Assembly: GCF_009909615.1 (NCBI RefSeq)
Contig: NZ_WWNE01000007.1
Location: 63,052-127,051, forward strand
Direction: 5' to 3'
Length of the DNA stretch: 64,000 bases
Source: Acidiluteibacter ferrifornacis
Lineage (GTDB): Bacteria > Bacteroidota > Bacteroidia > Flavobacteriales_E > Vicingaceae
The translations under genes and the position numbers were made by a program. Shown one piece after another: positions 29,496-56,886 of this stretch. The notes below the pieces were generated by a model. The model searched no databases and was not told the origin of the DNA. It saw only the letters and a list, made by a program, of their open reading frames with translations. Each line of letters begins with the position of its first letter. The stretch's first letter is position 1.

Positions 29496-31397
29496 TTATT
29501 TTTTCTCTTCAGTCACTTCTTCGAAGTCAACATCAGTCACTTCATCATCACCCTGAGCAGTTTGGCCTTGACCTGCATCAGCTCCAGGATTTTCACCTGT
29601 ACTTTGATACATGGTTTGAGCAGCTTCTTGGAAGATTGAATTCAACTTATCCATTGCTGGGTCTAAAGCATCTAAATCTTGAGCTTCATGAGCTTTTTTC
29701 AATTCAGCCAAAGCAGCTTCAATTGGCTCCTTCTTGTCAGCTGGTAATTTATCACCAAACTCTTTCAATTGCTTCTCGGTTTGGAAAATTAAAGTATCTG
29801 CTTTATTCAGTTTTTCTACCTTTTCTTTTGCTTTAGCATCTGCATCCGCATTTTCTTCAGCATCCTTCTTCATCTTCTCGATTTCCTCGTCAGTTAAACC
29901 TGAAGATGCTTCGATACGAATAGACTGCTCTTTGTTTGTAGCTTTATCTTTTGCAGAAACATTCAAAATACCATTTGAATCGATGTCAAAAGTTACTTCA
30001 ATTTGAGGAACTCCTCTTTGCGCTGGTGGAATACCATCTAGGTGGAAACGACCAATTGTTTTGTTTCCGCTAGCCATTGGACGTTCTCCTTGCAATACAT
30101 GTATCTCAACTGAAGGCTGGTTGTCAGAAGCTGTAGAGAAAGTTTCAGACTTCTTCGTAGGGATTGTGGTATTTGCTTCGATTAATTTAGTCATCACACC
30201 ACCCATAGTTTCAATACCCAATGATAATGGAGTAACATCTAATAAAAGAACATCTTTCACTTCTCCTGTTAATACACCACCTTGAATAGCTGCTCCAATT
30301 GCAACAACCTCATCAGGGTTTACACCTTTCGAAGGCTCCTTCCCGAAGAATGCTTTAACTGCTTCTTGAATAGCTGGTATTCTGGTAGATCCACCAACTA
30401 GGATTACTTCGTCGATATCTCCAACACTTAGTCCAGAAGCTTTCAGTGCAGACTTACAAGGCTCAATTGTTCTTTTGATTAGAGAATCTGCCAATTGCTC
30501 GAACTTAGATCTTGATAAAGTTCTTACAAGGTGCTTTGGTCCAGATGCTGTTGCTGTAACATATGGCAAGTTAACTTCTGTTGAAGAAGTACTAGATAAT
30601 TCTATCTTAGCCTTTTCAGCAGCTTCTTTCAAACGTTGCAAGGCCATTGGGTCTTTTCTTAAGTCGATCGACTCGTCTTTGATAAATTCTTCAGCTAACC
30701 AATCTATGATTACTTGGTCGAAGTCATCTCCACCTAAGTGAGTATCACCATCAGTAGATTTCACTTCAAACACGCCATCTCCTAACTCTAGAATAGAAAC
30801 GTCATGAGTACCTCCACCACAGTCAAAAACTACGATTTTCACATCATCCATTTTTTTATCTAATCCATAAGCCAATGCTGCTGCAGTAGGTTCGTTAATG
30901 ATTCTTCTCACTTTCAAACCAGCGATTTCTCCTGCTTCTTTCGTTGCATGACGCTGAGAATCGTTAAAATATGCTGGTACAGTAATAACAGCCTCTGAAA
31001 CTGTAGTTCCAAGATAATCCTCTGCCGTTTTCTTCATTTTTTGAAGAATCATTGCAGAAATTTCTTGAGGAGTATATTTTCTGTCATCTATTTCAACTCG
31101 AGCAGTGTCATTATCTCCTTTTACTACTTTATAAGGTACACGTCCAACTTCCTTCTCAATTTCGCTAAATTTATTACCCATAAATCGCTTAATCGAATAG
31201 ATTGTCTTGGTTGGGTTTGTGATTGCTTGTCTTTTAGCAGGATCTCCTACTTTTCTTTCTCCACCTTCTATAAAGGCTACAATCGAAGGTGTTGTTCTTT
31301 TTCCTTCGCTATTAGGGATTACAACTGGTTCGTTACCTTCCATTACGGATACGCAAGAGTTGGTTGTTCCTAAGTCGATTCCAATTATTTTACTCAT
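29496..31397 (-). CDS. dnaK: Chaperone DnaK (Hsp70)
   Basis: The 633-residue Hsp70 binds and releases unfolded proteins in an ATP cycle with DnaJ and GrpE. The actin-like ATPase domain shows [45 protein letters not shown] and [14 protein letters not shown]. The substrate domain includes [14 protein letters not shown], and the acidic C-terminus ends [12 protein letters not shown]. Length is standard. dnaJ and grpE are not adjacent, so dnaK is monocistronic here with its own terminator. A sigma-54-like element lies 55 nt upstream of the ATG; no CIRCE (HrcA) operator was seen. Confidence 0.98.
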
Positions 31398-31452: not shown

Positions 31453-31469
31453 GTCAATGACTATGCCAA
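31453..31469 (-). promoter_or_regulatory. Sigma-54-like element upstream of dnaK
   Basis: On the minus strand the sequence is TTGGCATAGTCATTGAC, with the -24 GG and 10 nt between it and a GA at the -12 position (the consensus is GC). A 13/17-identical element lies at the comparable place upstream of lon. The predicted leader is about 45 nt. This is a motif-based inference, weakened by the GA. Confidence 0.4.
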
Positions 31470-31542
31470 TAGAAAATCTTTTCTTAAAATTGAAATAATG
31501 ACATAAAACAACGGGGAGAAGTCACTTTGGGATGGCAGTTTG

Positions 31543-31555
31543 TGACAAATAGTCA
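31543..31555. repeat. Inverted repeat TGAC-N5-GTCA upstream of dnaK
   Basis: The palindrome TGACAAATAGTCA lies just after the stop codon of the lipoprotein gene and about 75 nt upstream of the sigma-54-like element of dnaK. GTCAC at 31521-31525 also pairs with GTGAC at 31542-31546. It may be an operator or activator site; chance is not excluded. Confidence 0.3.
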
Positions 31556-31559
31556 GTTA

Positions 31560-32579
31560 TTAATTGGTTCTAAAGTTCAAATGTTTGGTCAAATCACTTT
31601 CAATTAACTTTTGAATACTTTGAGGGTTGAAGGGTAACTGCTTTTGAGCCACATTTCTATAATTCCTGGAAGAAAATAAACCAATACCATTACTAAGATT
31701 AGAATAACTGGGCTTATTTTGATTAATATCATTAGATGGCTTAGTAGCATCAATATAGAGGGATAAATCTTCGTGAGCGGCAGCAATTAAAACTTCTACT
31801 CTTGGAAGACGTTTTACGGTGTTGGGAGGTGTTTCAACTGACCTACCGATTACCGTATAAAATAGTTCAGGTGAAAAATCAACTGTCATTACAGTACCTG
31901 AGTTAGCTCTGGTATTTGAATTTGCACCTACATAAAAATCAAAATATTTACCCACAATAGTATCATTGGTCGATAAATCAATTTCGTCATAAACCAACCT
32001 CAAGGTTACTTCATATTTTACAGCATTTTCACTAGATCTCCAATTAATAGTGAAACTTCTCCCAAAACAATATCCTTCTTCAGAACAGTTTCGAATAAAG
32101 CTAACATCAAAGTTTGGATTAGGATCGTTCAATGTCAAGTTATCAATCAAAGATGTTTTACCAGTTATTACTTCTCCAGTTAAATTATTAGTCACTCTAA
32201 GTTCATAAAGTTTATCTGCTGATGAAAATGTAATTGGGGCAGTTGTATAATAAACGATATAATCCGAATTATTAAAATATCCTGCCTCTTTACTTACTAA
32301 ATCACCTTCTAACCGGATAACATTTCCTTCATCAATTATCTCAACATTCAAATCACCCGACTTATAGTTAATAGAATCCTCATATTTAACCATATCATCT
32401 GCACTGTTAGAACCAAGAAAAGCTCTATTAACTCGTACAAACTGAGTATCTGCGTTTTGATCCAATAAACAAAAAACATATGAATTAAATTCATAGTCAT
32501 CATTTAGTTCTACTTCAGTTTCACAACCTACTATAAAAAAGCTAATAACAACTAATATCGACAAGGAGATTCTTTTCAT
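31560..32579 (-). CDS. Uncharacterised outer-membrane lipoprotein
   Basis: I choose the ATG at 32579 rather than the upstream one at 32612, because it gives a standard lipoprotein signal (MKRISLSILVVISFFIVGC) with the lipidated Cys at residue 19. The next residues, ETEVELND, are acidic, as in Bacteroidota surface-export signals. The 339-residue product is rich in beta-strand-like segments and contains a conserved-looking start (NSYVFCLLDQNAD, then FVRVNRAFLG). It resembles the DUF4249-type lipoproteins in layout, but I cannot assign a family. It lies upstream of dnaK on the same strand with a 162-nt gap. Confidence 0.65.
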   Translation of the reverse strand: MKRISLSILVVISFFIVGCETEVELNDDYEFNSYVFCLLDQNADTQFVRVNRAFLGSNSADDMVKYEDSINYKSGDLNVEIIDEGNVIRLEGDLVSKEAGYFNNSDYIVYYTTAPITFSSADKLYELRVTNNLTGEVITGKTSLIDNLTLNDPNPNFDVSFIRNCSEEGYCFGRSFTINWRSSENAVKYEVTLRLVYDEIDLSTNDTIVGKYFDFYVGANSNTRANSGTVMTVDFSPELFYTVIGRSVETPPNTVKRLPRVEVLIAAAHEDLSLYIDATKPSNDINQNKPSYSNLSNGIGLFSSRNYRNVAQKQLPFNPQSIQKLIESDLTKHLNFRTN

Positions 32580-32623
32580 AAGCGCTAAATTACCAATTTT
32601 ATATTTTCCCAAAATAGATTTTG

Positions 32624-54320: not shown

Positions 54321-56765
54321 TTAACTAATCTTAATCGGGTTATCTACTTTTGTTTTTAATAAAGCCAAATCAATGACTTCAATCATCTCAGTTACGTAAT
54401 GAAACTTTAAACCCTTTAAATAAGCTGCGTCAATTTCATCAATGTCTTTCTTATTGTCTATTGACAATATAATTTCCTTGATATCAGCTCGCTTAGCTGC
54501 CAAAATCTTTTCTTTGATCCCTCCTACTGGTAATACTCTACCTCTGAGGGTAATTTCTCCGGTCATCGCCAAATTTCTCTTCACTTTTCGTTGTGTAAAT
54601 GCCGATGCCAAAGCCGTCATCATAGAAATACCTGCAGATGGGCCGTCTTTTGGAGTCGCTCCTTCAGGAACGTGCAAATGAACATTCCAGTTTTCGAACA
54701 CTTCAGCATCCAATCCTAACGCTTCTGAATGAGCTTTTAAATACTCTAAAGCCAATGTAGCTGACTCTTTCATCACATTACCTAGATTTCCAGTCAACGT
54801 AAACTTGCCTTTACCTTTACTCAAACTAGTCTCAATGAACAAAATATCCCCTCCTACTGAAGTCCATGCTAAACCTGTCACCACTCCTGCAACATCATTG
54901 CCTTGATATTTATCTTTTGAATGTCCCGGTCCTAATATGGATTGCAAATCTGCTACAGAAATCTTTGGATTATAATCTTCTTCTAAAGCAATAGACTTTG
55001 CTGCATAACGCACTATACTAGCTAGCTTTTTCTCCAATCCTCTTACTCCCGACTCTCGTGTGTATTCTTCACATACCTTCTCAATGATCTCTTTTGAAAT
55101 TACTACGTCGGTTTTCTTTATTCCGTGAGACTCTAATAGCGTAGGAATTAAATGCTTCTTCGCTATTTCGACTTTTTCTTCGACAGTATATCCATTGATT
55201 TCAATGATTTCCATTCGATCTCTCAACGCAGGTTGAATGGTACTCAGACTATTCGCAGTAGCGATGAATAAAATTTTTGACAGATCGTAATCCATTTCTA
55301 TAAAGTTATCATAGAATGTGCTATTCTGTTCGGGATCTAATACTTCAAGCATTGCAGAAGAAGGGTCTCCATGATGATCGGAACCTAACTTATCAATTTC
55401 ATCTAAAACAAAAACAGGATTAGAAGTCTTTGACTTTTTTAAGCTTTGTAGGATTCTTCCAGGCATGGCACCGATATATGTTTTACGGTGTCCTCTTAAC
55501 TCAGCTTCATCCCTCAATCCTCCCAAAGACATTCGCACATATTTTCTCCCTAATGCCTCTGCTATTGACCTACCCAACGATGTTTTACCTACACCAGGAG
55601 GTCCGTACAAACATAAAATAGGAGATTTCATATCTCCCTTCAGTTTCAAAACTGCTAAATGTTCAATGATTCTTTTTTTCACTTCTTTCAGGCCAAAATG
55701 GTCTCTATCCAATACTTTTTGCGCCTTCTTTAAATCAAATTTATCTTTGGTGTATTCACTCCATGGTAAATCTAATAAAGTCTCTATATAATTGATCTGG
55801 ACAGAATATTCTGCAGAAGAAGAATTCATCCGTTGAAGTTTGTTCAACTCCTTCTCAAATCGTTCTTTCACCTCTTTAGTCCACTTTTTCTTTAGGGCTC
55901 TCTTTTTATACTCTGCAATCTCTTGCTCTTGAGGATTACCACCCAGCTCTTCTTGAATCATCTTCATTTGCTGATGCAAGAAATACTCCTTTTGCTGTTT
56001 GTCTATGTCCGTTTTTACTTTACTTTGAATATCGTTTTTAAGCTCTAACATTTGTAGATCTTTCGACAAATGAGTGAGTAACAACAAGGCTCGTTCTTTA
56101 GTATCCTTTTCTGATAATATTTGTTGTTTTTGAGCAACGGTAGCATTCATGTTGCTCGCTATAAAATTGATTAAGAAAGAAGGACTCTCTATATTTTTTA
56201 TCGCAAAAGACGCCTCAGAAGGTAGGTTTGGAGAATTATCTATAATTCTGAAAGACATATCCTTAATAGAATCTATTAGTGCAGTAAAAGCTTGATCAGT
56301 TGGAACCTCGCCTACCTCGTAATCTTCAACTTTAGCCTTGTGGTATGGCTCAGTTGCTGTTAATTCTATTATCTGAAATCTTTTCTTACCTTGAATAATC
56401 ACCGTAGTATTTCCGTCAGGCATTCTGAACATTTTCAAAATACGCGCGACGGTTCCCACTTTATTCATTTGCTCAAATACAGGATCTTCGATTTTATCAT
56501 CCAATTGAGAAACTACACCAATAGTCTTATCTCCCTTATTGGCATCTTGTATCAATTTTATTGATTTATCACGTCCTACTGTGATTGGAATAACCACACC
56601 AGGAAACAACACTGTATTTTTAAGCGGTAAAATTGGCAATTCATCAGGGGTTTCTTCAGAGTTCATATTCTCCTCATCCTCTGATGTCATTAATGGTATA
56701 AATTCTGTCTCATCATCAATCAATCCTGAAAAATTCAAGTGATCGAAATTAAAGCTATTCTTCAT
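54321..56765 (-). CDS. lon: ATP-dependent protease Lon
   Basis: The 814-residue cytoplasmic AAA+ protease has the LonA layout: N-terminal substrate domain (ELPILPLKNTVLFPGVVIPI), ATPase with Walker A GPPGVGKTSLG at 388-398 and Walker B VFVLDEIDKLG, and a Ser-Lys protease domain with S710 in PKDGPSAGI and K753 in GGIKEK. It degrades misfolded and regulatory proteins. The N-terminal extension before ELPIL is about 40 residues, common in Bacteroidota. A sigma-54-like element lies 78 nt upstream of the ATG, similar to that of dnaK. Confidence 0.97.
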   Translation of the reverse strand: MKNSFNFDHLNFSGLIDDETEFIPLMTSEDEENMNSEETPDELPILPLKNTVLFPGVVIPITVGRDKSIKLIQDANKGDKTIGVVSQLDDKIEDPVFEQMNKVGTVARILKMFRMPDGNTTVIIQGKKRFQIIELTATEPYHKAKVEDYEVGEVPTDQAFTALIDSIKDMSFRIIDNSPNLPSEASFAIKNIESPSFLINFIASNMNATVAQKQQILSEKDTKERALLLLTHLSKDLQMLELKNDIQSKVKTDIDKQQKEYFLHQQMKMIQEELGGNPQEQEIAEYKKRALKKKWTKEVKERFEKELNKLQRMNSSSAEYSVQINYIETLLDLPWSEYTKDKFDLKKAQKVLDRDHFGLKEVKKRIIEHLAVLKLKGDMKSPILCLYGPPGVGKTSLGRSIAEALGRKYVRMSLGGLRDEAELRGHRKTYIGAMPGRILQSLKKSKTSNPVFVLDEIDKLGSDHHGDPSSAMLEVLDPEQNSTFYDNFIEMDYDLSKILFIATANSLSTIQPALRDRMEIIEINGYTVEEKVEIAKKHLIPTLLESHGIKKTDVVISKEIIEKVCEEYTRESGVRGLEKKLASIVRYAAKSIALEEDYNPKISVADLQSILGPGHSKDKYQGNDVAGVVTGLAWTSVGGDILFIETSLSKGKGKFTLTGNLGNVMKESATLALEYLKAHSEALGLDAEVFENWNVHLHVPEGATPKDGPSAGISMMTALASAFTQRKVKRNLAMTGEITLRGRVLPVGGIKEKILAAKRADIKEIILSIDNKKDIDEIDAAYLKGLKFHYVTEMIEVIDLALLKTKVDNPIKIS

Positions 56766-56860: not shown

Positions 56861-56886
56861 TCTGGAGAATCGGCAATTTTGTCAAT

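Follow-up and report, generated by a model that had tools for sequence, protein, structure and literature searches.

The 17-nt element that precedes dnaK and lon in Acidiluteibacter ferrifornacis is quite probably the -24/-12 promoter of a sigma-54 regulon, accompanied by an upstream TGNCA enhancer that would be read by an enhancer-binding protein (EBP) encoded next to miaB; this joint explanation accounts best for the data. The two elements lie in a stretch of 64,000 nucleotides, here called the window, in which the following features are relevant (PWM scores refer to the enhancer matrix, with a site threshold of 10):

29496..31397, minus strand: dnaK (Hsp70), putative regulated gene; Pfam PF00012, E=4e-263
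31453..31469, minus strand: putative -24/-12 (sigma-54) promoter element of dnaK, TTGGCATAGTCATTGAC, a 17-mer with class-wide conservation 5' of dnaK
31490..31504, minus strand: enhancer-like site of dnaK, proximal copy, ATGTCATTATTTCAA; lies 20 bp 5' of the promoter element and has a PWM score of 10.9
31542..31556, minus strand: enhancer-like site of dnaK, distal copy, CTGACTATTTGTCAC; lies 72 bp 5' of the promoter element and has a PWM score of 16.9
54321..56765, minus strand: lon (ATP-dependent protease), putative regulated gene; Pfam PF05362 and PF02190
56844..56860, minus strand: putative -24/-12 (sigma-54) promoter element of lon, TTGGCACAGCCCTTGAA, a 17-mer with class-wide conservation 5' of lon
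56871..56885, minus strand: enhancer-like site of lon, weak, TTGACAAAATTGCCG; lies 10 bp 5' of the promoter element, with PWM scores of 6.4 (forward) and 7.6 (reverse), both below 10

When the sequence was re-checked, both 17-mers were found on the minus strand, 55 nt (dnaK) and 78 nt (lon) before the ATG, and identical to each other at 13 of 17 positions with 10 nt between GG and GA, all as an earlier note on this DNA had it. They have the layout of sigma-54 promoters: GG at -24, G at -13/-12 and 10 nt in between, in the context TTGGCA-N6-TTGM. On its own the pair is little proof, being modestly unlikely within the window (0.21 matches were expected and 2 found, a number also reached in 4 of 100 shuffles). 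Because these window statistics are weak, the question was taken to the rest of the genome and to relatives. The open reading frame directly upstream of dnaK (window 31560-32612, minus strand, 350 aa) has no Pfam match.

The pattern TTGGCAN6TTG has 36 matches in the whole genome, nearly all within coding sequence. The clearly intergenic matches with a downstream gene belong to dnaK, lon, grpE and one transposase-like gene. The grpE element, TTGGCAAAAGAATTGAC, lies 33 nt before the ATG, and a relaxed pattern also finds an element upstream of groES, TTGGCATAAAATATGAC; that of htpG reads TTGGTACAGCCTTTGAC. The remaining match, TTGGCACCCATTTTGAC (L003/L141, genome C9:9629-9644), lies 12 nt upstream of the transposase-like reading frame and was taken as a chance occurrence, no enhancer-like repeat being visible by eye. 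The genome encodes RpoN (PF04552, E=5.8e-53), and the translation contains the canonical RpoN box ARRTVAKYRE. The proposal of the earlier note, an RpoN-controlled proteostasis regulon, is thus supported both by the presence of rpoN and by the occurrence of the element at grpE, groES and htpG in this genome and at dnaK, lon, groES and htpG throughout the class. Sequence comparison supports reading the 17-mer as the promoter of a regulon common to dnaK, lon, grpE-dnaJ, groESL and htpG, with clpB in a weaker form; that these genes depend on RpoN and respond to heat in this organism is what we infer.

Conservation was scored within 260 nt upstream of each gene in sampled genomes of the class, some of them fragmented, with a promoter score that has a maximum of 18.1. 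A score of at least 16 was reached upstream of groES in 52 of 55 species, of dnaK in 47 of 56 genomes, of lon in 47 of 59 and of htpG in 26 of 30, as against 1.3% of shuffled sequences and 3.4% of the upstream regions of other genes. This comparative footprint puts the element, as judged from sequence, far beyond chance. A point against the proposed regulon is clpB, where only 7 of 30 promoters score at least 16 and the -24 part is degenerate (TTGGAN), perhaps giving lower or tighter expression. The clpB promoters (L292-L321) combine this degenerate element with a phased enhancer. The -12 dinucleotide was counted with a score from which its second base had been removed for the purpose: among 176 promoters it is GA in 128, GC in 22, GT in 22 and GG in 4. 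The earlier remark that GA replaces GC in both copies is correct, but the accompanying worry that this might betray the site of a different regulator loses its ground: with GA in 128 of 176, the supposed variant is the local rule at these promoters.

RpoN was found in 56 of 60 class genomes. Two genomes, G017 and G039 (L288, L289), have no RpoN match, yet their EBP is retained and its sigma-54 contact loop is intact. Both are without a good lon element and G039 is also without a good dnaK element, while G017 has an in-phase clpB site. As the EBP is kept in both and the clpB site in G017, an assembly gap is the probable reason for the missing RpoN, with true loss as a possibility, and the two genomes were dropped as an RpoN-less negative test and not used as evidence.

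The second component of the proposed system is a repeat further upstream. De novo motif discovery was applied to the dnaK, lon and groES sets one by one, in the 110 nt that precede the promoter, and gave the same kind of element in each, TGNCA-N3-TGNCA, with a pooled log-likelihood ratio of 598 compared with about 52 for shuffled sequence. If recognition is measured as the share of sites above the 95th percentile of other upstream regions, the dnaK-trained matrix recognises 60% of groES and the lon-trained matrix 62% of dnaK; lon sites are poorly recognised by the other two matrices (11-13%). The gaps between site and promoter cluster at 10, 20-21, 31, 41, 52, 62-63 and 72-73 bp. In a scan of periods from 6 to 16 bp the best is 10.5 bp, with R=0.82 over 198 sites. 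Since homologous promoters are not independent, the value for unique gaps per gene family (n=82, R=0.66) is the safer number. The same phasing is seen in families not used to derive the motif, htpG (R=0.89) and clpB (R=0.84), and shuffled sequence yields 0.013 sites per promoter and no phase. The htpG family is the most regular of all, with sites in 26 of 26 scored promoters. Such a conserved repeat at set positions relative to the promoter is characteristic of a sigma-54 enhancer (UAS), and the 10.5-bp phasing fits, as expected, an enhancer presented on one face of the DNA.

Within the A. ferrifornacis genome, enhancer-like sites are also found at grpE and htpG, both with a gap of 10, and at groES with a gap of 62 and, narrowly missing the threshold with a score of 9.6, with a gap of 10. 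The exact pattern CTGNCANNTTGNCA has six matches in the genome, among them the upstream regions of grpE and htpG. A repeat first considered at dnaK, CTGCCATCCCAAAGTGAC, was dropped because it deviates from the motif that was recovered. The distal groES site overlaps a terminator-like hairpin after secG, GTGTCAGAATGTCAtaTTCTGACAcTTTTTTT (L049:8546-8580, secG-groES intergenic region, minus strand), and the same design recurs in several species (several of L060-L139), so that terminator and enhancer may be one and the same sequence. Some observations count against the enhancer reading. Textbook sigma-54 enhancers lie roughly 80-150 bp away, and the closest centres here, near -45, are nearer than that. 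Furthermore, the lon site in the window, with the gap of 10 that is usual for lon in relatives, is weak, and of 47 lon promoters in the class just 19 have a site above the threshold.

A candidate for the protein that reads the repeat is encoded close by: the operon upstream of groES-groEL consists of miaB, an EBP gene, lptE, a TPR-like gene and secG, the names of all but the EBP being given by sequence resemblance. In the EBP, the AAA+ sigma-54 domain begins at residue 11 (PF00158, E=2.9e-66); the protein also has a lid, a long linker and a Fis-type HTH (HTH_8, E=1.5e-13), and a Pfam domain search found no sensor domain in it. Its closest relatives by identity (80-82%) are from Vicingaceae (Flavobacteriales) genomes. 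In 75 relatives the sigma-54 contact loop reads GSFTGA (59) or GAFTGA (16), and the HTH helix SERTLYRKI is nearly invariant. The linker is variable, except for a strongly conserved short segment, sEReiLYk.LFDmk.D..dLKklV, which is suggested to be the place where a partner sets the activity of the protein. None of the curated NCBIfam models names this EBP. It resembles the PspF type, likewise an AAA+ sigma-54 activator with a Fis-type HTH and no N-terminal sensor, which controls a stress operon; however, it stays under the curated cut-off of the PspF equivalog TIGR02974 (277.7 bits against 443.55), has the long linker with its conserved segment and is linked to miaB and groESL. At E<=1e-100 it was found in 55 of 60 class genomes; its apparent absence from one of them (G043) is an artefact of this E-value cut, the protein being present.

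Two to four EBPs per genome are found in most cases. For nine of the genomes that have two, the second protein was checked against Pfam; it has a receiver-AAA architecture, GAFTSA in place of GAFTGA and no HTH, so that the miaB-linked protein is the sole self-sufficient DNA binder among the EBPs there. Receiver-domain GAFTSA proteins of this kind, without a DNA-binding domain, are widespread (L048:12472-13638, L353-L366). A 490-kb genome has kept RpoN and exactly one EBP, the miaB-linked one, and its dnaK promoter reaches a score of 18.1; its dnaK enhancer-like site, with a gap of 45, is about 3 bp out of phase, which counts against the reading. Taken together, the sequence data make the sensor-less miaB-linked EBP the likely activator acting through the TGNCA enhancer.

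The following mechanism is proposed. One or two copies of TGNCA-N3-TGNCA just upstream of the promoter, with centres at an estimated -45 to -107 or so from the start site, would be bound by the EBP through its Fis-type HTH. With the enhancer-promoter distance near a whole number of helical turns, the EBP would be held on one defined side of the helix with respect to the sigma-54 holoenzyme and would use ATP hydrolysis to open the promoter. As it lacks a sensor domain, its activity would probably be set by a partner, perhaps a chaperone that is titrated by unfolded protein. We infer which EBP occupies the enhancer and in which direction it controls the genes, and likewise the stress signal and the titration. 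The stronger proposal, in which this single sensor-less EBP is the master heat-shock activator of the Bacteroidota, acting from helix-face-locked proximal enhancers with its activity set by a chaperone or other partner on the linker segment, is put forward tentatively, as a possibility that we would stop a little short of calling probable.

It is scarcely conceivable that the 17-mer is a chance match and that the ordinary Bacteroidota promoter, TAnnTTTG, drives dnaK and lon. The mild improbability of the pair within the window would allow it, but the conservation at the same genes across the class, against 1-3% in controls, would not, and an exact TAnnTTTG, which the earlier note had named as the alternative start, occurs upstream of neither gene. 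A search for the CIRCE operator (TTAGCACTC-N9-GAGTGCTAA) in the dnaK and groES upstream sets of the sampled genomes gave a best match of only 13/18, in agreement with the earlier observation that the operator is absent. Moreover, homologues of these genes have mapped sigma-54 start sites: a Flavobacterium psychrophilum transcriptome study places start sites with a sigma-54 motif, SM4, before groES-groEL, lon, dnaK, grpE-dnaJ, htpG and clpB, most of them in one co-expression cluster; the protein quality-control cluster with SM4 promoters is designated B254 (PMC9723704).

Granted a sigma-54 promoter, the TGNCA repeat might instead be the site of another EBP, such as a response regulator, or of several EBPs. 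This genome has five, so another could contribute here, and F. psychrophilum has three proteins with a sigma-54 interaction domain; the authors of that study leave the activator open and suggest that different co-expression clusters may have different activators (PMC9723704). We nevertheless consider it unlikely, given the nine two-EBP genomes in which the other EBP has no DNA-binding domain, the 490-kb genome with the miaB-linked EBP alone, and the position of its gene in an operon adjoining groESL. Less likely still, indeed very improbable, is a reading in which the sigma-54 promoter is overlaid with an operator, the repeat, to which a repressor or a two-component regulator such as RprY would bind. 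RprY of Porphyromonas gingivalis does bind fragments of the groES, dnaK and clpB promoters, with apparent repression (PMC3646045), and as a probable repressor at these promoters it does indicate that other layers of control exist. Yet it did not bind htpG in that study (PMC3646045), where the sites are most regular (26 of 26), and a phase that is kept across seven helical turns would be expected if an activator touches polymerase, not if a repressor blocks it. Recognition of the repeat by the miaB-linked EBP thus remains our preferred reading.

The sigma-54 reading of these genes is correct and is already in print for the relative F. psychrophilum, in which the same genes (groESL, lon, dnaK, grpE-dnaJ and htpG) carry -24/-12 elements with mapped starts; the main text of that paper gives neither an enhancer site nor an activator, (PMC9723704), and to this the present analysis adds the helical phasing, the rule of GA at -12 and a survey across the class. 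A PSSM survey of 2025 reports predicted sigma-54 promoters enriched before GroEL/ES, DnaK/J, GrpE and IbpA in Bacteroidota, most strongly in Flavobacteriia, and its available text mentions no activator or enhancer for the chaperone genes (PMC12316311). Literature searches, with most subscription journals outside their scope, returned no enhancer or activator for these genes in Bacteroidota; the TGNCA-N3-TGNCA enhancer is apparently undescribed, an earlier description in those journals being possible.

The chaperone promoters considered here are without the CIRCE operator. Heat-shock control by sigma-32 (RpoH) or by HrcA/CIRCE acts on the same target genes; in contrast, sigma-54 and an enhancer seem to be used here, and no CIRCE is found upstream of dnaK or groES. 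One species was already known to have the sigma-54 promoters; with a defined enhancer and one candidate activator across the class, the question of how Bacteroidota sense protein damage becomes testable. The natural set of phased enhancers also offers a good system for studying short-range sigma-54 activators. If the proposed scheme is confirmed, sigma-54 and an EBP would do in Bacteroidota what sigma-32 does in Escherichia coli.
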